Shown here one piece after another: positions 3,394-20,881 of a stretch of DNA of 64,000 nt. The notes below the pieces were generated by a model that saw nothing but the letters and a program-made list of their open reading frames with translations, was not told the DNA's origin and did no database searches. Position 1 is the stretch's first letter, and every line of letters begins with the position of its first letter. Made by a program: the position numbers and the translations under genes. Source of the DNA: Roseicyclus mahoneyensis (GTDB taxonomy: Bacteria; Pseudomonadota; Alphaproteobacteria; Rhodobacterales; Rhodobacteraceae); NCBI RefSeq assembly GCF_003148775.1, contig NZ_QGGW01000001.1, forward strand, positions 496,001 to 560,000, written 5' to 3'.

Positions 3394-4800
3394 ATGGCAG
3401 GCGTTGTGGATCTGTGGCGCAACGAGGACGGGATCGCTACAGCGATGGACATCTTGCGCCAACGCTTTGGCGCGCGGGTCGAAACCGGGCAGGCGCTGCG
3501 CGAACAGCACGCGCATACCACGACATGGCTGCGCAATCAGCCGCCCGATGCGGTCATCTGCCCCACCTCGACCGAGGAGGTGCAGGCGATCATGGCCATC
3601 TGTTCGCAATATCGGGTGCCGGTCATCCCCTTCGGCACGGGCAGCTCTCTGGAGGGGCACGTCAATGCTCCTGCAGGAGGAATATCACTTGATTTCAGGG
3701 ATATGAACGCCATCCTTCAGGTGAATGCCGAGGATATGGACGTCGTGGTCCAGCCCGGTGTGACGCGCAAGGCGCTGAACGCGCACCTGCGGGCGACGGG
3801 GTTGTTCTTTTCCGTCGATCCGGGCGCCGATGCCTCGCTCGGCGGCATGGCCGCGACGGGGGCCAGCGGCACCAATGCGGTGCGCTACGGGACGATGAAG
3901 GACAATGTGCTGGCGCTCAAGGCTGTGCTGCCCTCGGGCGAGCTGGTCCAAACGGCGGCCCGCGCGCGCAAGTCGAGCGCGGGCTACGATCTGACGCGGC
4001 TCATGGTTGGCTCGGAGGGGACGCTGGGGATCATCACGGAACTGACCCTGCGCCTGCGCGGCATCCCCGAGGCGGTCTCTGCCGCGACCTGTTCCTTTCC
4101 CGACGTGGCCGCTGCCTGCAACGCGGTGATCGCAACCATTCAGTATGGCATCCCGGTCGCGCGGATCGAACTGCTGGATGCGCTGCAGGTCCGGGCCGTC
4201 AACGCCTATTCGAAGCTGTCGCTGCCCGAAGCCCCCCTTTTGCTGCTGGAATTCCATGGCTCGGACGCTGGTGTGGCGGAAGATGCGGCGCGGTTTGGGG
4301 ATATCGCGGCCGAGACGGGGGGCAGCGGCTTTACCTTCACCAAACGCGAGGAGGACCGCAACCGCCTGTGGCAGGCGCGCCATGATGCCTATTGGGCGGG
4401 GCTGCAGTTGCGCCCCGGCGCCAAGGGACTGTCGACCGATGTCTGTGTGCCGGTCAGCCGACTGGCCGATTGCGTCAGTGCCGCGCAGGACCGGCTGGCC
4501 TCCATGGGCATGCTGGCGCCCATCGTCGGCCATGTCGGCGACGGCAATTTCCACTGCCTGCTGCTGGTCGACACAGACAACCCGGCCGAGGTCGCGCAGG
4601 CCGAAGGGTTCATCGGCTGGCTCAACGAGCTGGCGATTTCGATGGATGGCACCTGCACCGGCGAGCATGGCATCGGGCAGGGCAAGGCCCCCTATCTGGA
4701 ACGCGAACTGGGATCTGGCGCGATGGCGATGATGCGCGCGATCAAGCGTGGCATCGACCCGCACAACATCCTGAACCCCGGCAAGATGGGTCTGACCTGA
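3394..4800 (+). CDS. FAD-linked oxidase, D-lactate dehydrogenase (LDHD/GlcD)-like
   Basis: This flavoprotein of 468 residues has an N-terminal PCMH-type FAD domain (PFGTGSSLEGH, then SLGGMAATGASGTNAVRYG) and a C-terminal FAD-oxidase domain with the metal-binding motif GHVGDGNFHC and GEHGIGQGK near the end. These fit D-2-hydroxyacid dehydrogenases such as LDHD and GlcD, which oxidise D-lactate or glycolate and pass electrons to cytochrome c or quinone. The ATG at 3394 is chosen because a G-rich ribosome site (gggggggtgg) lies just before it; a TTG at 3379 is also in frame. The stop overlaps the start of the next gene by one base. Substrate is inferred only. Confidence 0.88.
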   Translation: MAGVVDLWRNEDGIATAMDILRQRFGARVETGQALREQHAHTTTWLRNQPPDAVICPTSTEEVQAIMAICSQYRVPVIPFGTGSSLEGHVNAPAGGISLDFRDMNAILQVNAEDMDVVVQPGVTRKALNAHLRATGLFFSVDPGADASLGGMAATGASGTNAVRYGTMKDNVLALKAVLPSGELVQTAARARKSSAGYDLTRLMVGSEGTLGIITELTLRLRGIPEAVSAATCSFPDVAAACNAVIATIQYGIPVARIELLDALQVRAVNAYSKLSLPEAPLLLLEFHGSDAGVAEDAARFGDIAAETGGSGFTFTKREEDRNRLWQARHDAYWAGLQLRPGAKGLSTDVCVPVSRLADCVSAAQDRLASMGMLAPIVGHVGDGNFHCLLLVDTDNPAEVAQAEGFIGWLNELAISMDGTCTGEHGIGQGKAPYLERELGSGAMAMMRAIKRGIDPHNILNPGKMGLT

Positions 4801-5519
4801 TGGCGCGCCCGACCCACCATGGCATCCCCTCGGCCCATGCCGAGCCGCACCTCTCGGGGCGCTCGGGCTGGTTGCGCGCGGCGGTCATGGGGGCCAATGA
4901 CGGCATCTTGTCGACCGCCTCCTTGATCGTGGGTGTGGCTGCCGGGGCAAGCGATCATGTCACCGTCATGCTGGCGGGCATCGCAGGGATGGTGGCGGGC
5001 GCGCTCAGCATGGCGGCGGGGGAATATGTCTCGGTCTCAAGCCAGGAGGATGTGGAGCAGGCCGACATCGCCAAGGAACGGCGGGAACTCAAGCTCAACG
5101 CAGAGGCGGAGCTGGACGAACTGGCCCAGATCTACGAAACCCGCGGCCTGCCGCCGCCGCTGGCCCGCGAGGTTGCCGAGCATCTGACCGAAGCGGACGC
5201 GCTTGGAGCGCATCTGCGCGACGAAATCGGGTTGACCGATCTGTCGCCGCCGCGCCCGTTGCAGGCAGCGGTTGTCTCGGCGCTGACCTTTGCCGCCGGG
5301 GCGTCGGTGCCGCTGACGGTGGGGGCAGTCGCACCGATGGAAAGTCTGCAGGTCTGGGTGGCGTCGGCGACGCTTGTGGCCCTAGGCACGCTCGGTGCGC
5401 TGGGGGCGCAGGCCGGGGGGGCGTCGCGGCGCCGTGGCGCGCTGCGGGTGATCATTTGGGGTGTGCTGGCCATGGCCGCGACAAGCGTCATCGGGTCTTT
5501 GGTGGGCGCGGCGCTTTAG
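4800..5519 (+). CDS. VIT1/CCC1-family iron/manganese transporter
   Basis: The protein has 239 residues. The N-terminal motif MGANDGILSTASLIVGVAAG and the downstream AGALSMAAGEYVSVSSQED are diagnostic for VIT/CCC1 transporters, which move Fe2+ or Mn2+ out of the cytoplasm. A charged, helical cytoplasmic domain (about residues 80-140, rich in Glu) lies between spans 2 and 3, and three C-terminal membrane segments follow. The ATG overlaps the last base of the preceding flavoprotein stop, so the two genes are probably co-transcribed. The 3' end overlaps by a few bases the convergent nagA gene. Confidence 0.9.
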   Translation: MARPTHHGIPSAHAEPHLSGRSGWLRAAVMGANDGILSTASLIVGVAAGASDHVTVMLAGIAGMVAGALSMAAGEYVSVSSQEDVEQADIAKERRELKLNAEAELDELAQIYETRGLPPPLAREVAEHLTEADALGAHLRDEIGLTDLSPPRPLQAAVVSALTFAAGASVPLTVGAVAPMESLQVWVASATLVALGTLGALGAQAGGASRRRGALRVIIWGVLAMAATSVIGSLVGAAL

Positions 5520-6640
5520 ATCCTTTGCCAGCCTTCGCCGGTGGCAAGCGACGTCAGCCGGTCCCCGGCCAGGCACAAAAGGCGGGCGGGCCGTCCCGGC
5601 GTGATCCGGTTGGGCTGTCCGGTCACAAGCCGGTGCGGCGCATCGAAGGCCAGGGGCAGAACCTCTGTAAGGGATGCACCCGTGGCCCTCGCCATATGGC
5701 GTACCGCGTCGATCATCGTGATGTCGGCCCCGGCCAGCGTGCCATCGGCCAGCGTCAGCCGCCCGCCCGCCCGCGTGATCCGCCGCCCCGCAAAGTTGAA
5801 ATGCGCCTTGGAGGTTCCGGCGACGGCCATGGCATCTGTCACAAGGATAAGCCGGTCGCGCGCCGTCGCCCAAGCCAGCCGCAGCCCGGCGTCATGAACA
5901 TGCACACCATCTGCGATCAAGCCGATCCATGGCGCATGATCCAGCGCCGCGCCCACCATGCCGGGTTCGCGGTGATGCAGGCCGGACATGGCGTTGAACA
6001 GATGCGTGACATGGCCCGCGCCCGCCGCATAGGCCGCTTTTGCGGCGTCATACCCAGCGCTGGAATGGCCCAGTGACACGGTCACGCCGGCCTCGGTCAG
6101 CGCCGCGATCTGCGCATGCGTCACCTGTTCCGGGGCCAGCGTGATCAAGAGATGCGGCAAGACAGCCGCCGCCGCCTTGTAGCGCATGAGGTCCGCATCG
6201 GTCATGGGGCGCAATTGCGCCGGGTCATGCGCGCCTGCGACGGCGATATGTGGCCCCTCCAGATGCAGGCCTAGGATAGCCGGATCATCGGTCGCGGCCT
6301 GCGCGACAAGGTCGATGATGCGCGTGATTTCAGACCCGCTGTCCGAGATCAGCGTCGGCATCAGGCCTGTGGTGCCACCCGCCCGATGCGCGGAGGCAAG
6401 GCGCGAGACATCGCCGGGTGTCGTGCACTCGCCCAGCATCAGCCCCGCGCCGCCGTTGACCTGAAGGTCCAGAAACCCGGGGCAGACCAGCGCGCGCTGG
6501 CCGTCTTGCGACAGGTCCACGGCCGGTTCGCCTGCCTGCCTGTGGCGGACCTCGGCAATCTGCCCCTCCGTGAGGCGCAGTGCCATGTCGGCCCGCAGCC
6601 CGTCGCCGTCCAGAATGTCGAGCCCGCTGTACAGTGTCAT
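5516..6640 (-). CDS. nagA: N-acetylglucosamine-6-phosphate deacetylase
   Basis: The 374-residue protein belongs to the amidohydrolase superfamily and removes acetate from GlcNAc-6-phosphate in the cytoplasm. Family motifs seen in order are DLQVNGGAG, LHLEGPHI (metal-binding Glu), VSLGHSSA, HLFNAMSGLHHREPG, LIADGVHVH and LVTDAMAVAG (catalytic Asp). The ATG at 6640 overlaps the kinase stop by four bases, which indicates translational coupling; an upstream in-frame extension runs through the kinase gene and is not used. A glucosamine-6-phosphate deaminase gene is absent from the window, so the route after deacetylation must be completed elsewhere. It is the last gene of the GntR-led minus-strand operon. 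Confidence 0.95.
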   Translation of the reverse strand: MTLYSGLDILDGDGLRADMALRLTEGQIAEVRHRQAGEPAVDLSQDGQRALVCPGFLDLQVNGGAGLMLGECTTPGDVSRLASAHRAGGTTGLMPTLISDSGSEITRIIDLVAQAATDDPAILGLHLEGPHIAVAGAHDPAQLRPMTDADLMRYKAAAAVLPHLLITLAPEQVTHAQIAALTEAGVTVSLGHSSAGYDAAKAAYAAGAGHVTHLFNAMSGLHHREPGMVGAALDHAPWIGLIADGVHVHDAGLRLAWATARDRLILVTDAMAVAGTSKAHFNFAGRRITRAGGRLTLADGTLAGADITMIDAVRHMARATGASLTEVLPLAFDAPHRLVTGQPNRITPGRPARLLCLAGDRLTSLATGEGWQRI

Positions 6641-7485
6641 GGTAACCCCCGCGCCAGTGACAGTGCCCCGTCCAGGGCGTTTCCCAACGGCTCTTGCAGG
6701 CCGGTCTGCATCGATCTGGCCCAGCGCGCAGCAAGGGCACTGGCAAAGCCGCCCGTCAGCGCCCAGGCGCCGCCCGCGGGATGGCCGATCTGGCGCAGGG
6801 CCACCACCACCTCGGCGCCGACACGTTCGAGCAGGTCTTTGGACCACGGGCTCCCGCAAGCGAGGATCACAGGCGCAAGTGCCGCGAAATCCTCGGGCCG
6901 GGCGTCACGCGCGAACAGCACCGGATGCAGGCCCATCGCCCCGCGCAGCACCCCGATCAGCGGGTCGGCCGCATAGCGCGACATCCGCCCATCCTCGATC
7001 CTGAGCAGTTCCGACAAGGCCATGCGCCCGAACCATGCCGCCGAGCCTTCGTCGCCCAGCACAAAGCCCCAGCCGCCCTGATGCGTGATCCCGCGCGCGT
7101 CGCGCCGGATGCAGAAGGATCCGGTGCCAAGGCTGACCAGCGTCCCCTCGGCCCCGGCGAATGCGCCCTCCAGCGCCGTGACACTGTCATCGACGACATA
7201 GGCAAGAAAGGGCAGGCGGGTGGCAAAGGCATCAGCCGCGCCGGCTAGCCGCCCGCCCGCCAGCCCCGCGCAGACGCGGGCATCGACCATCGCGTCGAAC
7301 CCGAGGCCCCGCGCGGTCAGTGCCTCGGTCAACGCGAGCCTGATCGCGGCCTCGGCCGCCGCCGGGTCGGTGACGATGTTGGCCGGGCCGCCCCGCGTCA
7401 GGGCGACCGGGCCACCCTCAAGCGACAGCGCCACCCGGCAGCCCGTGCCGCCCCCGTCGATGCCGATGTCGATGCGTCGCGTCAT
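6637..7485 (-). CDS. BadF/BadG/BcrA/BcrD-type sugar kinase, probable N-acetylglucosamine kinase
   Basis: The 282-residue protein has an ASKHA ATPase fold. The N-terminal phosphate motif is GIDGGGTGCRVAL, the second is SLGTGSF near residue 115, then EGSAAWFG, and an adenosine motif LTGGFAS near the C terminus. This matches eukaryotic-type GlcNAc kinases. Phosphorylation of GlcNAc at C6 would give the substrate of NagA, whose start codon overlaps this gene's stop. The gene lies 21 bp after the Gfo/Idh gene in the same operon. Substrate assignment follows from the NagA pairing, so another amino sugar remains possible. Confidence 0.85.
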   Translation of the reverse strand: MTRRIDIGIDGGGTGCRVALSLEGGPVALTRGGPANIVTDPAAAEAAIRLALTEALTARGLGFDAMVDARVCAGLAGGRLAGAADAFATRLPFLAYVVDDSVTALEGAFAGAEGTLVSLGTGSFCIRRDARGITHQGGWGFVLGDEGSAAWFGRMALSELLRIEDGRMSRYAADPLIGVLRGAMGLHPVLFARDARPEDFAALAPVILACGSPWSKDLLERVGAEVVVALRQIGHPAGGAWALTGGFASALAARWARSMQTGLQEPLGNALDGALSLARGLP

Positions 7486-7506
7486 GGCCAGACCCTACAC
7501 CGCCCG

Positions 7507-8592
7507 TCAGACGAGCGAAACGGCCTGGCCCGTGCACGCGCTCTCTTGCGCGGCGCGACCCATGCGCACAGCCGCCGCGCCATCGGCCAGCGTCACCTCG
7601 GGGCGGGCGCGGCCGTGGACGACCTCAAGAAAGCGCTCGTGCTGGTAGAAGGTCGACCCGTTGTGATCCCCCGCCGCCAACAGGCGCGGGTCCACCGGCA
7701 CCTCGTGTTCGACGGGGCCGGTCGGGTTGCGTGGGCTGACGATAACGCGGGGCACTGGCGCGGGGCCGATGTCGTGGTTCCAGAACCGCGTCGGTCCAGG
7801 CACCAGCGCCTCGATCTTGCCCAATGGCCCGACGGCGGAAATCTCCTCCTGATAGCGCGCCCCTTCGGCGAACATGCACAGCTCCAGCATCGCGCGCGCG
7901 CCACGGGCGAAATCGACGATGACATAGCCATGATCCCAGATGTCGGGCGTCTCGCCTTCGTAGCGTTCGTCCAGATGGTTCACGGCCTGCCCGGCGCTTG
8001 CCATCACGCGCACCGGCTCGTCTTGCACGATCAGGCGCATCAGGTCGAAGAAATGGCAGCACTTTTCCACCAGCGTTCCGCCGGTGTTGCGGTTGAACCG
8101 GTTCCAGTCGCCGACCTTTTCCAGAAAGGGAAAGCGGTGTTCGCGGATCGTCAGCATGCGGATGCCTCCGGTGGCCGCGTCGGCCATGTCGCGCAGGACC
8201 TGCACGGGGGGCATGTAGCGGTATTCCATCGCCACCCAGATCGGCGCCGGATAGTCGCGCGCCAACCGCTCCAGCGCGGGCAGTTGCGCCTCGTCGGTAT
8301 AGAGGGGTTTCTCGACCAGAACGGGCAGGGCGCGGGTGGCCGCGATCTGCTGCAACTGCGCGACATGCAGATGGTTGGGCGAGGCGATGACCAGCGCGTC
8401 GATGTCGCCGCGCGCCAGAAGCGCGGGAATGTCGGTGCAGCGCACCGCCTGCGGCATCAGGGCCAGCGTCGCCGCCGCCATCCCCGGATCGGGTTCGACA
8501 AAGGCCCCCAGCGTCGCGCCGGGCAACAGGGCGATGTTGCGGATATGCTCCTGCCCCATCATTCCGGAACCGATGATGCCGTATCGGGTCAT
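7507..8592 (-). CDS. Gfo/Idh/MocA-family NAD(P)-dependent oxidoreductase
   Basis: The 361-residue protein has an N-terminal Rossmann fold (GIIGSGMMGQEH), the family motif VEKPLYT near residue 95, and a C-terminal domain with VEKCCHFFDLMRL near residue 180, where Lys and His are the usual catalytic or substrate contacts. The family includes sugar dehydrogenases and NAD-dependent glycosidases (GH109, and the GH188 sulfoquinovosidases). Position between a GntR regulator and an amino-sugar kinase points to a sugar or glycoside substrate. The ATG at 8592 gives the correct Rossmann start; an in-frame upstream extension overlaps the regulator and is rejected. Whether it is a dehydrogenase or a glycosidase cannot be told from sequence alone. 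Confidence 0.88.
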   Translation of the reverse strand: MTRYGIIGSGMMGQEHIRNIALLPGATLGAFVEPDPGMAAATLALMPQAVRCTDIPALLARGDIDALVIASPNHLHVAQLQQIAATRALPVLVEKPLYTDEAQLPALERLARDYPAPIWVAMEYRYMPPVQVLRDMADAATGGIRMLTIREHRFPFLEKVGDWNRFNRNTGGTLVEKCCHFFDLMRLIVQDEPVRVMASAGQAVNHLDERYEGETPDIWDHGYVIVDFARGARAMLELCMFAEGARYQEEISAVGPLGKIEALVPGPTRFWNHDIGPAPVPRVIVSPRNPTGPVEHEVPVDPRLLAAGDHNGSTFYQHERFLEVVHGRARPEVTLADGAAAVRMGRAAQESACTGQAVSLV

Positions 8593-8630
8593 GCGCGTCT
8601 GTCTCCTTGCCCCAATGAAATTTGCCCGTG

Positions 8631-9329
8631 TCACGGAAGGCGCGCGACATAGGCCGCGCGATCGGGGTCGAACCATGTGGAGGAGACCTCGGCGATGCGC
8701 CCATCTGCCGCGAAGGCGCGGCGACGGGCAAGGGCCATGATGGTCCCGGGACGCGCGCCCAGCCGGTCGCCCGCCCAATCGGGCAGGGGGCCCGCGCCCA
8801 GCCTGTCCTCGGCCCGCGCGATGGTCAGCCCCATAAGGTCGCGGTAGCTGCGATAAAGCGATTCCGAGACCGTCGCGGGCGTGAGCCGCCCGTTGAACCG
8901 CCCGTCGAGCCAGATATCCTCGACCGCCACCGGCACCCCGTCGAGCGCGCGCAACCGGCGGATGTTCCACGCGTGGCGCGCCGTGCTGCCCAGATCGGGC
9001 AGGCCCTCGGGCTTTTCGCGGTGATCCAGCGCGATCAGCTCCGCCGTGGGCAAGCCACCCCCCTCGGGCCGCTCCAGCCGGAACAGGGCATAGACCGCTT
9101 GCCCGGTGTCGCCCGCCCGTATCGTGTTGCCCGATCCCTGCCGCCGCTCCAGTAGGCCGCGTTCGGTCAGCACCGCCAGCGCCTTGCGCAAGGTGGTGAC
9201 CGTCACGCCAAGCTCTGCCGCCATCGCCCTCTCGGGCGGCAGACGGTCACCGGGCGCAAGTCGACCGGCCGCAATGTCGCGGGTCAGCCGCTCGGCGATT
9301 CTGAGATAGGTGGGAAGGGCACCGCGCAT
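8631..9329 (-). CDS. GntR-family (HutC subfamily) transcriptional regulator
   Basis: The 232-residue protein carries an N-terminal winged helix (about residues 5-70: PGDRLPPERAMAAELGVT, then RKALAVLTERGLLERRQGSG) and a C-terminal UTRA ligand-binding domain (about residues 85-225), which defines the HutC subfamily. Members often sense sugar phosphates or other small metabolites and repress adjacent catabolic genes. It is the first gene of the minus-strand operon and faces the monooxygenase gene across a 90-bp gap, so it probably controls both directions. Confidence 0.92.
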   Translation of the reverse strand: MRGALPTYLRIAERLTRDIAAGRLAPGDRLPPERAMAAELGVTVTTLRKALAVLTERGLLERRQGSGNTIRAGDTGQAVYALFRLERPEGGGLPTAELIALDHREKPEGLPDLGSTARHAWNIRRLRALDGVPVAVEDIWLDGRFNGRLTPATVSESLYRSYRDLMGLTIARAEDRLGAGPLPDWAGDRLGARPGTIMALARRRAFAADGRIAEVSSTWFDPDRAAYVARLP

Positions 9330-9344
9330 CGCCTCGACACCGAT

Positions 9345-9361
9345 ATTGATCTACCATTGAT
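9345..9361. promoter_or_regulatory. Candidate operator: ATTGAT direct repeat in the divergent gap
   Basis: ATTGAT occurs at 9345-9350 and again at 9356-9361, eleven bases apart and therefore on the same face of the helix. The repeat sits just upstream of the GntR gene in the only gap between the two divergent operons. No convincing -35/-10 pair was found here. The link to the regulator is inferred from position. Confidence 0.3.
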
Positions 9362-9419
9362 ATACGTTGCCGTGAGCGGTAACCCTTGTCCAGTCCAAAG
9401 GCTTGGGAGGGCCTGCACC

Positions 9420-10574
9420 ATGACCATCGTTCCCGTCACATCCCCCGATCTCGACGCCGCCGAGGTCAGCTGGTTCGCTGCACTTTGCTCGGATGATTAC
9501 GAATATCTTGGCGTGCCCGACGGCGGGCTGCGTTCCAGCTGGGCGCATTGCTCTGGCATCGTGAAACGGGCCGAACGCCACGGGTTTCGCAACATCTTGT
9601 GCCCGTCCTCCTATCAGGTGGGGCAAGACACCCTCAGCTTCGTGGCGGGCTGCGCGCCGATCACCGACAAGATCAATTTCCTTGCCGCCGTGCGCTGCGG
9701 CGAGATGCAGCCGATCATGCTGGCGCGGACGCTGGCCACGCTCGACCACATGCTCGAGGGGCGGCTGACGGTCAACATCATCTCCTCCGACTTCCCGGGC
9801 GAAAAGGCCGACAGCGCGTTTCGCTACCAACGTTCGCGCGAGGTGGTCGAGATCCTGAAACAGGCCTGGACCCGCGACACGATCGACTACGAGGGCGAGG
9901 TCTACCAGTTCGCGGGCCTGACGACCGATCCCGCCAAACCCTACCAGACGGGCGGGCCGCTTTTGTATTTCGGCGGCTATTCCCCCGACGCGCTGGAGCT
10001 GTGTGGCCAGCATTGCGACGTCTACCTGATGTGGCCCGAACCCAAGGACCAGATCGCCGAGCGGATGCGCGCGGTTCACGCGGTGGCTGACCGCTACGGG
10101 CGCACGCTCGACTACGGGCTGCGCGTCCACATGATCGTGCGCGACACCGAAGCCGAGGCGCGGGACTATGCCGAACACCTCGTCTCGAAACTCGATGACG
10201 AGTTGGGCCAGCTGATCCGCGACCGCGCGCTCGACAGTGGCTCGCTCGGCGTCAGCCATCAGGCCAAGGCACGCGCTCTCGCCGACCAGTTCGGCTATGT
10301 CGAACGGCATCTCTGGACCGGGATCGGCCGCGCGCGCTCGGGCTGCGGGGCGGCGCTGGTCGGATCGGCCGATCAGGTGCTGTCCGAGATCGAGCAATAC
10401 CGGAAGATGGGCATCCGGGCCTTCATTTTCTCGGGCTATCCGCATATGGACGAATGCGATCATTTCGGGCGGCTGGTGATGCCGCATCTCAAGACCTGCT
10501 CGTTGCCCCATGCCTATGGGCGCGTGCCCGCCATACCGCCCGCCACACCGCTGGCAACAGGAGAAAGACGCTGA
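9420..10574 (+). CDS. SsuD-type flavin-dependent (LLM class) monooxygenase
   Basis: The 384-residue protein is a bacterial luciferase-like TIM barrel of the alkanesulfonate monooxygenase group, which uses FMNH2 and O2 to cleave C-S bonds of sulfonates, releasing sulfite and an aldehyde. Residues equivalent to SsuD Arg226, His228, Arg297 and Tyr331 are present (R235 and H237 in GLRVHMIVR, R306, Y340 in SGYPH). The loop bearing SsuD Cys54 differs (PSSYQVGQD), so the substrate is probably not a simple alkanesulfonate. The ATG at 9420 follows a good ribosome site (gggagg). Its stop overlaps the aldo-keto reductase start. No flavin reductase gene is present here. A sulfosugar substrate is inferred. 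Confidence 0.87.
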   Translation: MTIVPVTSPDLDAAEVSWFAALCSDDYEYLGVPDGGLRSSWAHCSGIVKRAERHGFRNILCPSSYQVGQDTLSFVAGCAPITDKINFLAAVRCGEMQPIMLARTLATLDHMLEGRLTVNIISSDFPGEKADSAFRYQRSREVVEILKQAWTRDTIDYEGEVYQFAGLTTDPAKPYQTGGPLLYFGGYSPDALELCGQHCDVYLMWPEPKDQIAERMRAVHAVADRYGRTLDYGLRVHMIVRDTEAEARDYAEHLVSKLDDELGQLIRDRALDSGSLGVSHQAKARALADQFGYVERHLWTGIGRARSGCGAALVGSADQVLSEIEQYRKMGIRAFIFSGYPHMDECDHFGRLVMPHLKTCSLPHAYGRVPAIPPATPLATGERR

Positions 10575-11464
10575 TGGACCGTGTGAAGCTGGGGCCGCTG
10601 GAGTGTTCGCGCATAGTTTACGGAATGTGGCGGTTGGGCGATGACGCCGACACCTCGCCCGCCCATGTTCAGGCCAAGATCGAGGCCTGTCTGGCGCAAG
10701 GCATCACCACGATGGACCAGGCCGATATCTACGGCGGTTATACCGCCGAGGCGATCCTGGGCGACGCGCTCAAGGCCGCTCCGGGCTTGCGTGACCGGAT
10801 CGAGATCGTGACCAAATGCGATATCATCGCCCCCGTGGGCCGCTATGCCGACCGCAGGGTGAAATACTACGACACCTCCGCCCATCACATCACCGCCAGC
10901 GTCGAACACTCGCTCAAGGCGATGGGGATCGAGGTGATCGACCTTTTGCTGATCCACCGTCCCGATCCCCTGATGCATCACGAGGAAACGGGCCTTGCGC
11001 TCGACACGCTTGTCGCAGCGGGCAAGGTGCGCGCGGTGGGCGTGTCGAACTTCAAGCGTCATGACTGGTCGCTGTTGCAATCGGCCATGGAAACACCACT
11101 CGCCACCAACCAGATCGAGCTGAGCGTCTTGCACCACACCCCCCTGACCGACGGCGAGGTCGCCTGGATGCAGGAAAAATCCGTGCCGGTCATGGCGTGG
11201 TCGCCGCTGGCGGGTGGGCGCTTGTTCGGACCCGAAGGCGCGCCCGTGCGCGATGTCCTGACCCGGATCGGCGCGCAGGCAGGCGTCGGCCCCGATGCCG
11301 TGGCCGTGGCCTGGCTCTTGCGCCATCCGGCGCTGATCTTGCCGGTGATGGGCACCAACAGCCTGCGTCGGATCACCGGCCTTGGCGATGCGGCCAAGGT
11401 GTCGCTCGACCGCCAAAGCTGGTTCGAGATCTACACCGCCGCCTTGGGCCGCGAGGTCGCCTGA
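10574..11464 (+). CDS. Aldo-keto reductase (YdhF/SmoB-like)
   Basis: The 296-residue (beta/alpha)8 NADPH-dependent reductase has the catalytic tetrad residues D48 and Y53 (MDQADIYGGY), K81 (VTKCD) and H128 (LLIHRPDP). It most resembles the group containing E. coli YdhF and the 6-oxo-glucose reductase SmoB of the Agrobacterium sulfoquinovose monooxygenase pathway. The start overlaps the monooxygenase stop by one base, so the two products are made together; an aldehyde released by the monooxygenase is the obvious candidate substrate. The actual substrate is inference. Confidence 0.87.
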   Translation: MDRVKLGPLECSRIVYGMWRLGDDADTSPAHVQAKIEACLAQGITTMDQADIYGGYTAEAILGDALKAAPGLRDRIEIVTKCDIIAPVGRYADRRVKYYDTSAHHITASVEHSLKAMGIEVIDLLLIHRPDPLMHHEETGLALDTLVAAGKVRAVGVSNFKRHDWSLLQSAMETPLATNQIELSVLHHTPLTDGEVAWMQEKSVPVMAWSPLAGGRLFGPEGAPVRDVLTRIGAQAGVGPDAVAVAWLLRHPALILPVMGTNSLRRITGLGDAAKVSLDRQSWFEIYTAALGREVA

Positions 11465-15017: not shown

Positions 15018-16328
15018 TCAGCGTTCCGGGATCAACCCGCGTGGGCTGAAGCGCAGGACCACGAGCAAGATCACACCCATGGTCAACAGTCGCATATGTG
15101 CGACCGCGTCCATCAGGTGACCGCGCAGCCAGGCGTCCGGGTCCATGCCCGCCGTGATGCCCTGCATGACGAAGGCGCCGATGGGTTCCACCTGGATCCA
15201 GAGCCACCAGATCAGGAATCCGCCCAGAACAGCGCCCCAATTGTTGCCCGATCCGCCCACGATCACCATCACCCAGATCAGGAAGGTGAAGCGCAAAGGC
15301 TGGTAGGTGCCGGGCACCAGCTGGCTGTCGAGGGTGGTCATCATTGCGCCTGCCATGCCGATGATGGCCGAGCCGAGGATGAAGACCTGCAGGTGACGCG
15401 CCTTGACGTTCTTGCCCATTGCCGAGGCCGAAACCTCGTTGTCGCGGATCGCGCGCATCATCCGGCCCCAAGGCGAATTCCATGCCTTTTCGCTCAGCCA
15501 GATCAGCGCCAGCAGCACCACGATGAAAAGCGCCGCGTAGCAAAGCTTGACGAAGATCGATGAGAAGATGACCGGGCTTGCGCCCATCCGGGCGGCGAGA
15601 TCGAGGAACCACTCGGTCTGCTGCAGGTCTACCTCGTAGGGGACGGGACGGGGAATGCCGGTGACGTTCTTGACGCCGCGCGCCAGCCAATCCTCGTTCT
15701 TGAGGACAGCGATGATGATCTCGGCGATGCCCAGCGTGGCGATGGCAAGGTAATCCGAGCGCAGGCCAAGGGCCGTCTTGCCGATGATCCAGGCCGCCCC
15801 GGCCGCCAACAAGCCGCCCACGGGCCAGGCCAGGATGACGGGCAGGCCAAGCCCGCCCAAATAGCCCGCCGCGGACGGGTTCACCGCCTCCACCGCCGCA
15901 ACGCCGGTGTCGAAGACGGAGCGGAAAAGGAAGAATCCCCCCACGAGGATCACGATCATGGTGAGCGCGCGCATGCGCCCCGCAGGGAGTTTCGACCATG
16001 CAAGGATGGCCAGAACGATCGTCGCGGCGCCGAGCACCAGCCCCAACAGGACCTGCACGCCGCCCGCCGCCCAAGCGTCTTGTTGCGGCGGCATGGAGAC
16101 CAGCACGGCGGCCAGCCCGCCGAGCGCGGCAAAGCCCATCACGCCGACGTTGAACAGGCCAGCGTAGCCCCATTGCATGTTTACGCCCAAGGCCATGATC
16201 GCGCTGATCAGCCCCATGTTGAAGATGCCGAGCGCGATGTTCCAAGACTGCACGAAGCCCGTGCCGACAAAGAGCATCCCTACGAGGGCGAACATCAGGA
16301 GCGCGCGGGTGTCGAGGCTGCGGGTCAT
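15018..16328 (-). CDS. livM: Branched-chain amino acid type ABC transporter permease LivM
   Basis: The 436-residue protein has about ten membrane spans and the EAA-like cytoplasmic loop (GRMMRAIRDNEVSASAMGKNV near residue 285) that couples to the ATPases. It is one of two permeases of an HAAT-family importer. At 436 residues it is longer than typical LivM (about 320-420), with extra spans in the N-terminal third. Its start overlaps the livH stop by four bases. Substrate could be branched-chain amino acids, other amino acids, urea or short amides; sequence does not decide. Confidence 0.92.
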   Translation of the reverse strand: MTRSLDTRALLMFALVGMLFVGTGFVQSWNIALGIFNMGLISAIMALGVNMQWGYAGLFNVGVMGFAALGGLAAVLVSMPPQQDAWAAGGVQVLLGLVLGAATIVLAILAWSKLPAGRMRALTMIVILVGGFFLFRSVFDTGVAAVEAVNPSAAGYLGGLGLPVILAWPVGGLLAAGAAWIIGKTALGLRSDYLAIATLGIAEIIIAVLKNEDWLARGVKNVTGIPRPVPYEVDLQQTEWFLDLAARMGASPVIFSSIFVKLCYAALFIVVLLALIWLSEKAWNSPWGRMMRAIRDNEVSASAMGKNVKARHLQVFILGSAIIGMAGAMMTTLDSQLVPGTYQPLRFTFLIWVMVIVGGSGNNWGAVLGGFLIWWLWIQVEPIGAFVMQGITAGMDPDAWLRGHLMDAVAHMRLLTMGVILLVVLRFSPRGLIPER

Positions 16329-17335
16329 ACCGATTTCCCCTTCATGATGCCGGTGGGCCGGAACAGGAGCACGATCAGCAAGATGCCGAAGCTGACGGCG
16401 AATTTGTAGTCGGTCGACAAAAGCTGCATCAGGCCATCGGGCGACCAGCCTTCAGGCCCGAGGTATTCGACGACCTTGCGGAAGGCATAGGTCACGCCGA
16501 CCTCGGAAAAGGCGATGAGAAAGCCGCCAAGGATCGCGCCGACCGGGTTGCCCAAGCCGCCGACGATGGCCGCCGCAAAGATCGGTAGCAAAAGCTGGAA
16601 ATAGGTGAAGGCCTTGAACGACTTGTCGAGGCCGTAGAGCGTGCCGGCCGTGGTCGCGAGCGCCGCCACGATCAGCCAGGTGATCATCACGACGCGCTCG
16701 GGGTTGATGCCGGACAGAAGCGCCAGATCCTCATTGTCGGAAAAGGCGCGCATCGACTTGCCTGTGCGGGTGCGGTTGAGGAACCAGAACAACAGGCCCA
16801 TGGCGATCAGGGCCACTACGATGGTGATGCCCTGACTGGTGCGGAAGGCCAGACCTTCCTCCAGCCCCGTGAGGTCGCGGAAGGTGCGCGCCGAGATGAT
16901 GAACCGCTCGCCATCGGCAAAGCGCTGGTCATCGACGCCGATGATGAAGCGCACGATGCCGTTCATGATGAACATCACGCCCAGCGACGCGATCACATAG
17001 ATCACCGGCTTGGCCTTTTGTCTGCGGTAGAAGCGGTAGACCACGCGGTCGGTGCCGATCACCAAAAGACCCGTCAGCGCGATGCCGACCGGCAGGGCCA
17101 GAAGCGCAGTGGGCAATGGCCCGAAGGTGACGCCCGCGCCCTGAAGGCCCCATGTGCACAAGATGACGATCATGGTGCCGAAGGCCATCGTGTCGCCATG
17201 GGCGAAGTTCGAAAAGCGCAGGATGCCATAGATCAGCGTGACGCCCAGCGCGCCGAGCGCGAGTTGCGCGCCATAAGCGGTGGCGGGGATGATGACGAAA
17301 TTCAGCAGCGTTACGAAGGCATTGAGAATATCCAT
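16325..17335 (-). CDS. livH: Branched-chain amino acid type ABC transporter permease LivH
   Basis: The 336-residue protein is an integral permease with about eight spans and a cytoplasmic coupling loop (MRAFSDNEDLALLSGINPERV near residue 198). It pairs with LivM to form the channel. The start is directly preceded by the stop of the small secreted protein gene with no gap. The conserved LGALGVTLIYGILRFSNFAHGD stretch near residue 26, shortened here, is typical of LivH. Operon order is binding protein, LivG, LivF, small protein, LivH, LivM. Confidence 0.93.
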   Translation of the reverse strand: MDILNAFVTLLNFVIIPATAYGAQLALGALGVTLIYGILRFSNFAHGDTMAFGTMIVILCTWGLQGAGVTFGPLPTALLALPVGIALTGLLVIGTDRVVYRFYRRQKAKPVIYVIASLGVMFIMNGIVRFIIGVDDQRFADGERFIISARTFRDLTGLEEGLAFRTSQGITIVVALIAMGLLFWFLNRTRTGKSMRAFSDNEDLALLSGINPERVVMITWLIVAALATTAGTLYGLDKSFKAFTYFQLLLPIFAAAIVGGLGNPVGAILGGFLIAFSEVGVTYAFRKVVEYLGPEGWSPDGLMQLLSTDYKFAVSFGILLIVLLFRPTGIMKGKSV

Positions 17336-17707
17336 TCAGGTCAGCCCCTCGCAGGTTCCGAAATAGGTCAGGACGGCGGCGGTTCCGTCGAAGATGTGCA
17401 GGCTGAGGATCGCGGTCCGGTCCCCCTCGATCGTCAGCAGTTCCGCGATGCCGTCGCGCCCCGCACCTGCATAGGTGGCGGGCAGGGCACCCTCCCTGGT
17501 CAGGCGGATCACCGGGCTGTCGCCCATCGCGGTCGACAGGAACAGGTCGCCCGCATGATCGGCTGCGATGACCTGCGCGTCGAAGCCCACGCTGTCGCAG
17601 CCTTCGGTCAGGTCACATTCGACGGTAAATGCGCAGCCCCAGGGCTCGGACAGCGCTGGGGTCGCGGCAAGGCAGAGCAGGGCGGGCAGCATGCGCAGGC
17701 CCCTCAT
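17336..17707 (-). CDS. Small secreted protein of unknown function within the liv operon
   Basis: The 123-residue product has a signal peptide (cleavage probably after ATPALS, near residue 20) and a mature part with four cysteines, three close together near its N terminus and one near the C terminus. These could form two disulfides in the periplasm. I do not recognise the family. Its ATG overlaps the livF stop (ATGA) and its stop abuts the livH start, so it is translated as a coupled member of the transporter operon. A role with the binding protein or channel is possible but not shown. Confidence 0.75.
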   Translation of the reverse strand: MRGLRMLPALLCLAATPALSEPWGCAFTVECDLTEGCDSVGFDAQVIAADHAGDLFLSTAMGDSPVIRLTREGALPATYAGAGRDGIAELLTIEGDRTAILSLHIFDGTAAVLTYFGTCEGLT

Positions 17708-18537
17708 CCGCCGAGGAAACTGCGGCGGACCTGTTCGTCAGCCAGCAATTCCTTGCCGGTGCCGGTATGGGCGTTGCGGCCCTGCACCAGCACATAGCCC
17801 TTGTCGGCGATCTCCAGTGCCTGCCGGGCGTTTTGTTCGACCATCAAGATCGGGATGCCGGTGCGGCTGACCTCGATGATACGGTCGAAAAGTTCATCCA
17901 TCACGATGGGGGAGACGCCGGCGGTGGGTTCGTCCAGCATCAGCACCTTGGGCTGGGTCATCAGCGCGCGGCCCACGGCCACCTGCTGGCGCTGGCCGCC
18001 GCTGAGTTCGCCTGCGGGCTGGCGGCGCTTGTCCTTGAGGATGGGGAAAAGGTGATAGACCTGTTCCATCGTGGCGCGGATGTCGTCGCGGCGGATGAAG
18101 GCGCCCATCTCGAGGTTTTCCTCGACCGTCATGGAGGCGAAGATGTTGTTGGTCTGGGGGACAAACCCCATGCCCTTGGCGACGCGGGCCTGCGGGCTGA
18201 GATCGGTGATATCCTCGCCATCGAGCCGGACGGAGCCTTGGCGGACGTTGAGCATGCCGAAAACGGCCTTCATCGCGGTGGATTTGCCGGCACCATTGGG
18301 CCCCACGATCACCGCGATCTCGCCGGGGTTCACGGCGATGGTGCAGGCGTGCAGAATGTCGGGGCCGTTGCCGTAGCCGCCCGTCATCGTGTCGCCGATC
18401 AAGAAGGCCTGACTGGTGTTCATCGCGTGTTTCGTCCCGGGCGAAGCGGTCAGGGTGCCGCCACCGGGCTTGCCGATCGACAGGTCCTTGTTGCCGCGGT
18501 CGTTTTGGTAGGGGTTGGCTGTGTCGCTGCCACTCAT
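17704..18537 (-). CDS. livF: ABC transporter ATP-binding protein LivF
   Basis: The 277-residue ATPase has Walker A GPNGAGKST (near residue 80), signature LSGGQRQQVAVGRAL and Walker B VLMLDEPTAG. It energises the liv importer with LivG. The N terminus carries about 40 extra polar residues before the usual LivF start; an internal ATG (MNTSQAF) near residue 39 could be the real start, but the upstream ATG overlaps the livG stop by four bases, as other joints in this operon do. The shorter start cannot be excluded. Confidence 0.92.
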   Translation of the reverse strand: MSGSDTANPYQNDRGNKDLSIGKPGGGTLTASPGTKHAMNTSQAFLIGDTMTGGYGNGPDILHACTIAVNPGEIAVIVGPNGAGKSTAMKAVFGMLNVRQGSVRLDGEDITDLSPQARVAKGMGFVPQTNNIFASMTVEENLEMGAFIRRDDIRATMEQVYHLFPILKDKRRQPAGELSGGQRQQVAVGRALMTQPKVLMLDEPTAGVSPIVMDELFDRIIEVSRTGIPILMVEQNARQALEIADKGYVLVQGRNAHTGTGKELLADEQVRRSFLGG

Positions 18538-19325
18538 GCGCCTGCGCCCTCCAGCTTGTCCTTGTTCTTGAGGCCGGTGCCCAGATAGGCCTCGATCACG
18601 GCCTCGTTCGCCTTGATCTCGTCGATCGTGCCCTTGGCCAGCACATGCCCCTCGGCCATGACGATCACGGGGTCGCAGAGGCGGCCGATGAAATCCATGT
18701 CATGTTCGATGACGCAAAACGTGTAGCCGCGTTCGCGGTTCAGCCGGATGATCGCGTCGCCGATGGTGTTGAGAAGCGTGCGGTTCACGCCCGCGCCGAC
18801 CTCGTCGAGGAACACGATTTTGGCGTCGACCATCATGGTGCGCCCCAGTTCCAGCAGTTTCTTCTGCCCGCCCGAGATCTGGCCCGCGGGGTGGTCGGCC
18901 AGATGTTCGACGGTCAGAAACTCGAGCACCTCGTCGGCCTTGGCGCGCAGTGCGCGTTCCTCGTCTGCGATGCGCTTGCGCCCGAACCATGTGTTCCAAA
19001 GCGTCTCGCCGGTTTGCCCCGGCGGGACCATCATCAGGTTCTCGCGGCAGGTCATGGAGTGAAACTCATGCGCGATCTGGAAGGTGCGCAGAAGGCCCTT
19101 GGAAAACAGCACATGCGGCGGCAGGCCGGTGATGTCCTCGCCGTCCATGACGACGCGCCCCGAGGTGGGGGGCAACACGCCCGCGATGACGTTGAACAGC
19201 GTGGTCTTGCCCGCGCCATTGGGACCGATCAGGGCGGTGATCGAGCCCGTCTCGATGGTCAGGCTCGCGCCGTCAACGGCGTGGAAACCGCCGAAATGCT
19301 TGTGCAGGTCTTCGACAACGATCAT
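18534..19325 (-). CDS. livG: ABC transporter ATP-binding protein LivG
   Basis: The 263-residue ATPase has Walker A GPNGAGKTTLFN (near residue 35), signature ISGGQKKLLELGR and Walker B AKIVFLDEVGAGVN, with Val in place of the more usual Pro after the catalytic Glu. It pairs with LivF. The gene begins 77 bp after the binding-protein gene, and that gap contains a strong hairpin. The stop overlaps livF. Confidence 0.93.
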   Translation of the reverse strand: MIVVEDLHKHFGGFHAVDGASLTIETGSITALIGPNGAGKTTLFNVIAGVLPPTSGRVVMDGEDITGLPPHVLFSKGLLRTFQIAHEFHSMTCRENLMMVPPGQTGETLWNTWFGRKRIADEERALRAKADEVLEFLTVEHLADHPAGQISGGQKKLLELGRTMMVDAKIVFLDEVGAGVNRTLLNTIGDAIIRLNRERGYTFCVIEHDMDFIGRLCDPVIVMAEGHVLAKGTIDEIKANEAVIEAYLGTGLKNKDKLEGAGA

Positions 19326-19350
19326 GCGCCGCGCCCCTTAATAGTGCGAA

Positions 19351-19375
19351 ACAGCCCGGCTCACGACCGGGCTGT
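19351..19375 (-). terminator. Intercistronic hairpin between the binding-protein and LivG genes
   Basis: ACAGCCCGG and CCGGGCTGT form a perfect 9-bp stem around a 7-base loop. There is no long U run after it, so partial termination or 3'-end protection of the binding-protein message is more likely than full stop. This would give more binding protein than membrane subunits, as is common in ABC operons. Confidence 0.6.
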
Positions 19376-19402
19376 CTGCCTGTCAACGATGGAAGGCCGC
19401 GA

Positions 19403-20587
19403 TCAGCGGAAATTGACTGTCTGGATAACGCCGTCGACGACCTCGATCTCGCGGTACGCACCCGCGGATTCGCCGCCACCGATAAGTTCAACAGCCGTTG
19501 CGCCGATGTAGTCGATGTCCTGACCTGCCGCGAGCAGTTCAAGTGCGCGTCCCAGCTCTCCCGGCAGGATCGGCTCGCCCGGGGCATTGGCGACATCCAT
19601 GATATGCGCCGCATATTCGGCCGGCACCGTCGATCCGGCGGCCTGCATTGCCAGCATGATCAAGGCTGCAGCGTCGTAGGCTTCGGCCGAGAAAGCGGCG
19701 GTTCCGTCAAAGCCGGCTGCGGTGGCAAGATCGAAATACATCGCTGCGCCTTCGCTGTCGGTTCCGGGGAACTGTCCGAAAGAGCCGTTGATCTCCGTTC
19801 CGAAGCGTTCTGTGATCGCATTGCCGACCATGCCATCGGGCAGCACGAACGTGTCGAAGGCGCCGGTGTCGAGCGCTGCGCGAATGATCCCCGGACCACC
19901 TTGATCGATATATCCCGCAACGACGAGAACATCCCCACCGGCGGCAGCGAGCGCGCCAACTTCGGCAGAATAATCGGCACGGCCATCTTCATGGGACGCG
20001 ACCAAGGTGACCGTCCCACCAAGCTCCGCGAATGCGGCGGCGAAACTGTCGGCCAGGCCCCGCCCATAGTCGTTGTTGGTGTAAGTGACGGCCACGGTGT
20101 CAAAGCCGCGATCCAGAATGTTCTGGGCCATCACGACACCCTGCCGTGCGTCAGACGGTGCGGTGCGGAAAAAGAGGCCATTGTCCTCGAGCGTAGACAA
20201 GGCCGGGCTGGTGGCCGACGGAGACACCATGACCATGCCGTTGGGCATTGCAACGTTTGTCAGAGCTGGAATGGTCGCCCCCGAACACAAGGCACCAATA
20301 ATGCCGTTCACGCCAGCAGAGGTGATGAGGCGTTCGGCAGCGGCTACAGAAAGGGTTGCATCACAGGCCGAGTCGCCGCGAACGGAGACCACCGTCGCCC
20401 CGCCCAAAAGCGCGCCGCTTTCGGTCACTTCCGCCATTGCCAGCTCGGCGCCATCAGCCATGCCGGGGGCCAACGATTCTGCCGGGCCAGTAAAGCCGAG
20501 CAGCACGCCAAGTGTAATGGTGTCCTGTGCGGATGCCGCACCGGCCAGCGCCATCGTGGCCGCAGAGGCCAGAAGGATTTTCTTCAT
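19403..20587 (-). CDS. Periplasmic substrate-binding protein of the liv-type ABC transporter
   Basis: The 394-residue protein begins with a classical signal peptide (MKKILLASAATMALAGAASA), followed by the Peripla_BP_6 (LivJ-like) fold: ITLGVLLGFTGPAESLAPG at the mature N terminus and the YTNNDYGRGLADSFAAAF stretch near residue 175. A ribosome site (GGGAG) precedes the ATG at 20587; a longer in-frame extension upstream has no such site. It is the first gene of the operon. Ligand is unknown; the fold binds amino acids, amides or urea. Confidence 0.92.
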   Translation of the reverse strand: MKKILLASAATMALAGAASAQDTITLGVLLGFTGPAESLAPGMADGAELAMAEVTESGALLGGATVVSVRGDSACDATLSVAAAERLITSAGVNGIIGALCSGATIPALTNVAMPNGMVMVSPSATSPALSTLEDNGLFFRTAPSDARQGVVMAQNILDRGFDTVAVTYTNNDYGRGLADSFAAAFAELGGTVTLVASHEDGRADYSAEVGALAAAGGDVLVVAGYIDQGGPGIIRAALDTGAFDTFVLPDGMVGNAITERFGTEINGSFGQFPGTDSEGAAMYFDLATAAGFDGTAAFSAEAYDAAALIMLAMQAAGSTVPAEYAAHIMDVANAPGEPILPGELGRALELLAAGQDIDYIGATAVELIGGGESAGAYREIEVVDGVIQTVNFR

Positions 20588-20881
20588 TGGTAGTCTCCCG
20601 AGTTGGACAATTTCTGTCTTATGGCGTGGAACGGTAGCCGGAGGTTTTGAGGAAGAAAAGAGATATCCGCATTCCGCGGCGTCAACGGCGATCTGTCCCG
20701 CAGCCGCCATCCTGAGCGGGACAAAGTCCCGGCCTGCCGCATCTGGCAGACCATCTTCCTGTCAACGCTTCGAAAGCCCGCCGCTCCGGGCTCTCTTGCG
20801 CCCGGTGGCGGTTCGTCGGATGCTCCAAGCGCGCGGCTCAGGGCCTCGGGCAGGCGCGGTGACGGCACGACCGGAGGAAAG
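20588..20881. other. Divergent intergenic region, liv operon versus puuD
   Basis: This 294-bp gap must hold the promoters for the liv-type operon and for puuD. No clear -35/-10 pair, palindrome or RNA structure could be singled out by eye. Confidence 0.5.

Follow-up and report, generated by a model that had tools for sequence, protein, structure and literature searches.

Sulfoquinovose is the sulfonated sugar of plant and algal membranes, and its turnover is a large sulfur-cycle flux in which Roseobacters are important actors. Four described systems bear on the locus considered here. The sulfoquinovose monooxygenase (SMO) pathway of Agrobacterium and Novosphingobium (sulfo-SMO, or sulfo-ASMO) appears in excerpts of PMC12890257 and PMC9594981 as SmoA-SmoB-SmoC or SsuE-SquF-SquD. 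A Roseobacter form, present in Ruegeria sp. TM1040, includes a GH188 enzyme, and excerpts of PMC10755693 describe GH188 as near-universal in the sulfo-SMO clusters of Roseobacters. The alphaproteobacterial nag cluster (MurQ/NagK-GntR-NagB-II-NagA; loci L232, L237 and L246 of our survey) contains a BadF-type kinase and NagA, and the GH109 alpha-N-acetylgalactosaminidases have the Gfo/Idh fold and the NAD-dependent glycosidase mechanism in common with GH188. Here we describe a divergent six-gene locus in a 64,000-nucleotide stretch of the Roseicyclus mahoneyensis genome (contig NZ_QGGW01000001.1, positions 496,001 to 560,000; referred to as the window). Its SMO-GH188 core is a member of the known system, known from Roseobacters, and a sugar kinase and NagA are the unusual part (Table 1). 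We consider it likely that the locus is a Roseobacter-type sulfo-SMO operon pair joined to a branch for N-acetylglucosamine (GlcNAc) salvage under the sulfoquinovose regulator, with two sugar pathways sharing one regulator.

The window has the same coupled SmoC and SmoB orthologues as the Agrobacterium and Novosphingobium pathway, and by analogy C-S cleavage followed by reduction to glucose would be expected; it differs in having no flavin reductase or transporter at the locus, in the replacement of GH31 by GH188, and in the added kinase and NagA. With the Roseobacter form it shares both the arrangement of GntR, GH188, SmoC and SmoB and an operator-like repeat. Roseobacter relatives commonly continue with a flavin reductase and a TRAP or ABC transporter, whereas in the lineage of the window the kinase and NagA stand behind GH188 instead.

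The monooxygenase is identified by sequence as SmoC of the sulfo-SMO pathway. It matches the solved chains 7oh2 with 733 bits (313 of 383 residues identical) and 7olf with 730 bits, and SsuD with only 196 bits (117 of 342). We take 7oh2 and 7olf to be SmoC; the entries are titled alkanesulfonate monooxygenase and methanesulfonate sulfonatase, and a literature search for the two codes gave no confirmation. The residues that we take to be Arg226, His228, Arg297 and Tyr331 in SsuD numbering are R235, H237, R306 and Y340 in the window protein, are the same in 7oh2, and are kept in all 88 rows of the alignment; the position of the presumed Cys54 is V67, and the Cys is absent, as it is in 7oh2. Plasmid-borne relatives of SmoC carry a generic annotation in all 20 listed of 29. 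The aldo-keto reductase is likewise assigned as the predicted SmoB, with 426 bits to 7bby and 7bc0, which we presume to be SmoB (a literature search for these codes also gave no confirmation), and 221 bits to YdhF (1og6). The stop codon of smoC and the start codon of smoB overlap by one base. Excerpts of PMC13372026 use co-localised SmoB and SmoC as the criterion for a sulfo-SMO gene cluster, and the two genes are adjacent here.

The Gfo/Idh enzyme is, from its sequence and structure model, a GH188 NAD-dependent sulfoquinovosidase. It matches 8zn9 with 540 bits (242 of 359 residues identical), 8qc3 with 396 bits (192 of 356) and 8qc2 with 390 bits; the first of these entries is titled 'A vast marine sulfonate-based carbon cycle fueled by novel sulfoquinovosidases', and the 8qc entries are titled NAD-dependent glycoside hydrolases or sulfoquinovosidase, one of them with sulfoquinovose bound. 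The AlphaFold2 model (pLDDT 84.9) matches 8zn9 at Z 44.6 and 66% identity, and a fold search places six GH188 entries (8zn9, 8qc2-8qc8) at Z 41.5-44.6 and 51-66% identity, with the GH109 enzyme 6t2b far behind (Z 29.1, 14% identity). Sulfoquinovose-contact residues are given for ArSqgA in excerpts of PMC10755693, and the sulfonate triad also in PMC11465081. The triad of Arg166, Leu170 (through its backbone) and Lys172 corresponds to R153, L157 and K159 of the window enzyme, and Lys107, Tyr136, Glu189, His193 and His321 correspond to K95, Y124, E176, H180 and H310. All eight are invariant in the 86 rows of the alignment (the window and 85 of 87 loci, the other two giving no GH188 row), including the 15 rows of the lineage that carries the kinase and NagA. 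The column mapped to a ninth residue, Glu163, has Val in 8qc3 and Arg in 85 of 86 rows, and lies one column off the Glu of the REHR stretch, so that this mapping is not clean.

Much of the first-pass annotation of this DNA survives these comparisons. Open reading frames and Pfam domains bear out its six genes and their divergent, GntR-controlled layout (E-values of 5e-54 for Bac_luciferase in SmoC, 3.3e-49 for Aldo_ket_red in SmoB, 6e-19 for GFO_IDH_MocA_C in GH188, 3.3e-15 for BcrAD_BadFG in the kinase and 1.1e-9 for Amidohydro_1 in NagA). The SsuD-type Arg, His, Arg and Tyr without Cys54, and the translational coupling of monooxygenase and reductase, are as it described, and the monooxygenase goes with SmoC rather than SsuD, the sequence half of the outcome it had named as support. 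Where it left two options open, one stood in each case: SmoB and not YdhF for the reductase, and GH188 and not GH109, which we rejected on structure, for the Gfo/Idh enzyme. Its suggestion of a new combination finds no support as far as the core is concerned, given the near-universal GH188 of Roseobacter sulfo-SMO clusters.

To place the locus among its relatives we searched 390 genomes drawn from the order for SmoC (E 1e-100), of which 194 were positive, and from the listed part of the positive genomes assembled 80 loci, each some 20 kb long, at about one for each genus with some extras. SmoC is accompanied by GH188 in 78 of these loci, by GntR in 77 and by SmoB in 76, company that is far beyond chance, and by a window-type kinase in seven and NagA in four. 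For the flavin reductase and TRAP genes considered below, neighbouring genes were clustered from open reading frames picked by codon-position score, and because genes were still missed (SmoC itself was uncalled in three of the 80 loci) the counts of those clusters are lower bounds. Several of the loci L206-L230 come from genomes that also carry one of our G handles (L206 is from G079 and L226 from G296), and the two sets are not independent.

The regulator has DasR (about 65 bits) and YvoA (about 63 bits) as its nearest solved chains. The direct-repeat pattern TTGATNYACNATTGATNYA was derived from the same GntR-SmoC intergenic regions in which it is counted; among 97 of these (the window and 96 of 101 loci, five giving no such region) it occurs without mismatch in 60, with at most one mismatch in 96, and with at most two in all 97. 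Across the 80 loci (1.57 Mb), 75 of 78 matches lie inside the GntR-SmoC region, and the reversed pattern has none. In the genome of R. mahoneyensis the site in the window is the only one, and the reversed control gives 0; the control gives 0 in 14 of the 15 genomes scanned and 1 in G069, and G232 has no operator site at this stringency. Three genomes of one genus (G007, G069 and G079) have a single other site, about 180 bp before the gene of an ABC sugar-binding protein. That protein has no close solved relative (best 34 bits) and shares 72-77% identity with a binding protein encoded within the SMO loci L076, L086, L102, L107 and L109, which supports a predicted unlinked sulfoquinovose importer in the regulon of these three genomes.

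Other observations concern the same region. In L038, L040, L043, L044 and L048, among several TRAP-type loci, the second operator half reads TTGATCTACATCAA, which presumably resembles an FNR-type box. Extra direct repeats are present in G009, G029, G119 and G296 (loci L311, L313, L316, L325, L327, L330, L335 and L339), with a reversed control of 0. A scan of the window for promoters and terminators gave nothing above shuffled sequence (1 versus 0.8, and 2 versus 2.2).

The appended genes belong to the same families as the kinase and NagA of nag clusters but are distinct from them. NagA exceeds the curated cut-off of NCBIfam TIGR00221 (241.1 bits against 225.65), falls short of that of the PRK11170 model (231.8 against 483), and gives 181 bits to the solved NagA 3egj. 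The kinase is a probable GlcNAc kinase and a lineage-specific addition, to judge from sequence and model: the first fold match of its AlphaFold2 model (pLDDT 91) is the putative NagK 1zc6 (E 9.5e-21, TM 0.85), and Sulfolobus hexokinase (2e2n-2e2q) and human NAGK in complex with ADP and glucose (2ch6) are among the other fold matches. Window-type kinases form a clade of 27 rows and the NagAs one of 22 (100/100 for each), separate from the nag-cluster enzymes, and they stand behind GH188 with no NagB-II or MurQ beside them. Rhodophyticola L231 sits inside both clades; its contig breaks off at the kinase, and a second contig from that genome opens with GH188, GntR, SmoC and SmoB. The window kinase groups with those of a neighbouring genus (L206, L207 and L214; 93/81) and the window NagA with its own genus (L230, L217 and L211, in sets at 98/89 and 100/98), a pattern that suggests in-place replacement of the kinase gene by the copy of a relative.

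Kinase scores across the 390 genomes are bimodal, with 15 genomes at 222 bits or more and the next at 150 or less, and in all 15 the kinase lies 2-3 kb from SmoC on the same contig. NagA is linked to the kinase in 11 of them and is found only elsewhere in G007, G069 and G079. In a scan of named genomes with the kinase alignment we kept 80 of 217 related loci, and the best 25 are of the window type, 14 of them named Roseicyclus or Roseibacterium. Among these 25 the kinase is beside GH188 in 21, NagA is present in 20 and SmoC in 20; the other 55 have NagA in 34, NagB-II in 23 and SmoC in none. Of 21 loci, 20 have the kinase 2 to 43 bp behind GH188 (21 bp in the window) and one has it at 87 bp; the kinase overlaps nagA by 4 bases in 20 of 20. 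From this spacing the pair is probably co-transcribed with GH188, and with a gap of 38 bp between GntR and GH188 the window reads as one probable minus-strand unit, gntR-GH188-kinase-nagA, divergent from smoC-smoB. The appended pair is a real, lineage-wide variation. We found no paper that ties a kinase and NagA to sulfo-SMO, in a literature search that did not extend to the figures of the primary Roseobacter and SMO papers.

The two parts can also be found apart. In L215 and L218 the genes for GlcD, VIT, NagA, kinase and CcmF follow one another with no SMO genes at the site, and their genomes carry a different, TRAP-type SMO cluster elsewhere (SmoC 80%). L225 has the pair at another site in a genome record without SmoC, and L214 retains the kinase and SmoB in a genome without SmoC; in none of these four loci does the region preceding the kinase contain an operator, even when four mismatches are allowed. 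Conversely, G167 and G244 have SMO genes near VIT and neither kinase nor NagA, and hence neither part needs the other. We also rejected the pair as a component of the SMO core, given that 73 of the 80 family loci have no such kinase at the locus.

Two side observations touch on these sites. In two Roseicyclus genomes (L215 and L296, L218 and L297) the distant TRAP-linked cluster has the appearance of a replacement of one SMO cluster by another. In Ruegeria sp. TM1040 (NC_008043.1, L341), as at 4800-5519 of the window, a VIT-family gene adjoins the SMO locus; the Ruegeria site has no kinase or NagA in between, and the VIT neighbourhood may predate the arrival of that pair.

The remaining functions of the pathway appear to be supplied from other loci. 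As the first-pass annotation had observed, the window locus has no flavin reductase, transporter or sulfite exporter. At least 50 of 81 loci, counting the window, have a flavin reductase cluster and at least 44 a TRAP DctM cluster, each cluster family having been checked on one representative. On the Ruegeria sp. TM1040 megaplasmid the order is VIT, GH188, GntR, SmoC, SmoB, flavin reductase and TRAP, and Rhizobium sp. SL42 has the same order without VIT; both are annotated with a flavin reductase, TRAP genes and a 'putative sulfate exporter'. The R. mahoneyensis genome has three PF01613 flavin reductase genes elsewhere. A 48-residue SmoA-type flavin reductase query matched seven of 19 genomes, R. 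mahoneyensis not among them, the query being short and two of the seven matches weak. Sulfo-SMO clusters without a flavin reductase are known, for example in Novosphingobium (excerpts of PMC9594981). On the amino-sugar side, the R. mahoneyensis genome has a NagB-II-like gene elsewhere (C4:239218). We compared deaminases through NagB-II and left classical NagB (PF01182) out, as it is indistinguishable from 6-phosphogluconolactonase, with one similar match in 17 of 18 genomes and two in G244.

We propose the following activities for the locus. GH188 would remove the aglycone of a sulfoquinovoside such as sulfoquinovosyl glycerol through transient NAD-dependent oxidation at C3, SmoC would cut the C-S bond with FMNH2 and O2 to give sulfite and 6-dehydroglucose, and SmoB would reduce the latter to glucose, which a separate cellular glucokinase would take on; reduced flavin and uptake would come from genes elsewhere. 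GntR would act as a repressor at the direct-repeat operator between the divergent units and be released by sulfoquinovose or a related metabolite. A GlcNAc kinase and NagA would have been joined behind GH188 in the lineage around Roseicyclus and Roseibacterium, such that salvage of GlcNAc to glucosamine 6-phosphate would be induced along with sulfoquinovose use; decaying phytoplankton may be a place where both sugars occur. The role given to the pair is favoured by NagA exceeding a curated cut-off, by the putative NagK nearest the kinase in fold, by the persistence of the pair without local SMO genes and without the operator, by the NagA and NagB-II that accompany remoter kinases of this family, and by the R. 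mahoneyensis genome, in which the pair provides the only kinase and NagA matches (E 1e-25 for the kinase, 1e-50 for NagA) and the NagB-II-like gene lies elsewhere. A single regulator over two sugar routes is the most economical account of what is seen, namely the gene identities by sequence and fold, the conserved core, the operator-like repeat, the tight spacing and the separability of the pair.

Several observations weigh against this account. The kinase is below the NCBIfam NagK_SO3507 cut-off (90 against 370 bits), for which reason we call it NagK-type rather than NagK. L206, L207, L219 and L226 keep SMO genes and kinase without NagA, and in G296 no NagA match at all is seen at E 1e-50; both are hard to square with a kinase whose sole task is to supply NagA. 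The tight spacing behind GH188 and the confinement to one lineage, in what was searched, could mean a closer biochemical link. G029 and G119 each carry two kinase and two NagA matches, and there the linked pair is not simply the housekeeping copy. G125, G275, G016 and G232 have only GlmS-level NagB-II matches, as does G244, and in the first four GlcNAc could not be burnt by that route; where NagB-II is missing, glucosamine 6-phosphate would presumably go into cell-wall synthesis and not into glycolysis. In the R. mahoneyensis genome, in which no search aimed at one was made, no sulfoquinovose importer was identified. Finally, operator-like sites number 12 in G009, 8 in G029, 9 in G119 and 18 in G296, several near unrelated genes; they may be a regulon, sites of a paralogue or a dispersed repeat, and they weaken the step from site to regulon.

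An alternative explanation is that the kinase serves the SMO pathway as a hexokinase-like BadF member that phosphorylates the glucose released by SmoB, with NagA as a passenger. This would suit the four loci in which the kinase remains beside SMO genes where NagA is gone, and the hexokinase and glucose-bound NAGK among its fold matches. However, a PF02685 glucokinase is present in all 17 genomes tested, the kinase persists without local SMO genes in L215, L218 and L225, most SMO loci of the family do without it, and its nearest fold is a putative NagK. We dropped this as the principal explanation on the strength of the glucokinases and regard it as unlikely. In G007, G009, G029, G069, G079, G119, G167 and G244 (genus g8) the glucokinase is 0.9-1.0 kb from SmoC, just beyond SmoB; in L214 it stands, by eye, with a GH1-like and a LacI-like gene.

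A second alternative, close to the sulfonated amino sugar of the first-pass annotation, is that the whole six-gene set serves a single pathway, with an N-acetylated sulfosugar or a sulfoquinovose-GlcNAc glycoside as its substrate. GH188 would free the sulfosugar, SmoC and SmoB would yield GlcNAc (or convert sulfoquinovose to glucose with GlcNAc leaving), and the kinase and NagA would give glucosamine 6-phosphate. The closely packed GntR-GH188-kinase-NagA order behind a single operator, seen in most loci of one lineage, the second kinase and NagA matches in G029 and G119, and the oxidoreductive mechanism common to GH188 and GH109 are in keeping with this, and action of GH188 on sulfoquinovose-bearing N-glycans is a speculation of the authors in excerpts of PMC10755693. 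Against it, the eight ligand residues of GH188, the Tyr in contact with the C2 hydroxyl among them, are unchanged throughout the lineage and the family, the pair survives without local SMO genes, and sulfoquinovosamine and similar terms had no match in the literature searched. Divergence is also greater for the kinase and NagA (60% and 55% median identity to the window across the lineage) than for SmoC (87%) and GH188 (77%), with SmoB at 75%, but this is a weak argument, since the core GntR (63%) diverges about as much. Little favours such a pathway, which we hold to be quite improbable, and of the two possibilities that the annotation offered for these genes, two sugar pathways with one regulator fits better. 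Least probable of all is a locus made up of a general alkanesulfonate monooxygenase, which we rejected on scores, and a Gfo/Idh enzyme that is an ordinary sugar or inositol dehydrogenase: the two proteins belong to large superfamilies and have the SsuD and IolG models as their best NCBIfam matches, but these fall far under the cut-offs (241 against 518 bits and 101 against 355), 7oh2 and 8zn9 give about four and about eight times the bits of SsuD and of inositol dehydrogenase 4hkt, and the sulfonate-binding residues are conserved.

Table 1. Features of the R. mahoneyensis sulfo-SMO locus, in window coordinates.
Feature	Coordinates	Strand	Remarks
nagA, predicted N-acetylglucosamine-6-phosphate deacetylase	5516-6640	-	374 aa; overlaps kinase by 4 bases
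BadF/NagK-type sugar kinase	6637-7485	-	282 aa
GH188 Gfo/Idh enzyme, predicted NAD-dependent sulfoquinovosidase	7507-8592	-	361 aa
GntR/HutC-type (UTRA) regulator of the locus	8631-9329	-	Pfam GntR and UTRA
Operator-like direct repeat TTGATCTACCATTGATATA	9346-9364	+	between divergent gntR and smoC starts
smoC, predicted FMNH2-dependent sulfoquinovose monooxygenase	9420-10574	+	384 aa
smoB, predicted 6-dehydroglucose reductase, aldo-keto reductase	10574-11464	+	296 aa

Further along the window, at 15018-20710, a run of minus-strand open reading frames resembles, by eye only, a branched-chain amino-acid ABC transporter with permeases, ATPases and a binding protein.

The SMO-GH188 route is thus seen in a further lineage. 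The operator-like repeat that recurs across the family may help to locate regulon members that lie elsewhere in a genome, such as the putative unlinked ABC importer of three genomes. The kinase-NagA pair would tie amino-sugar salvage to the use of a sulfosugar. Should the SMO enzymes instead prove to make the substrate of the pair, a new natural sulfosugar would be indicated, and if all six genes form one pathway, the lineage around Roseicyclus and Roseibacterium would have fused the SMO route with amino-sugar catabolism on a single substrate.

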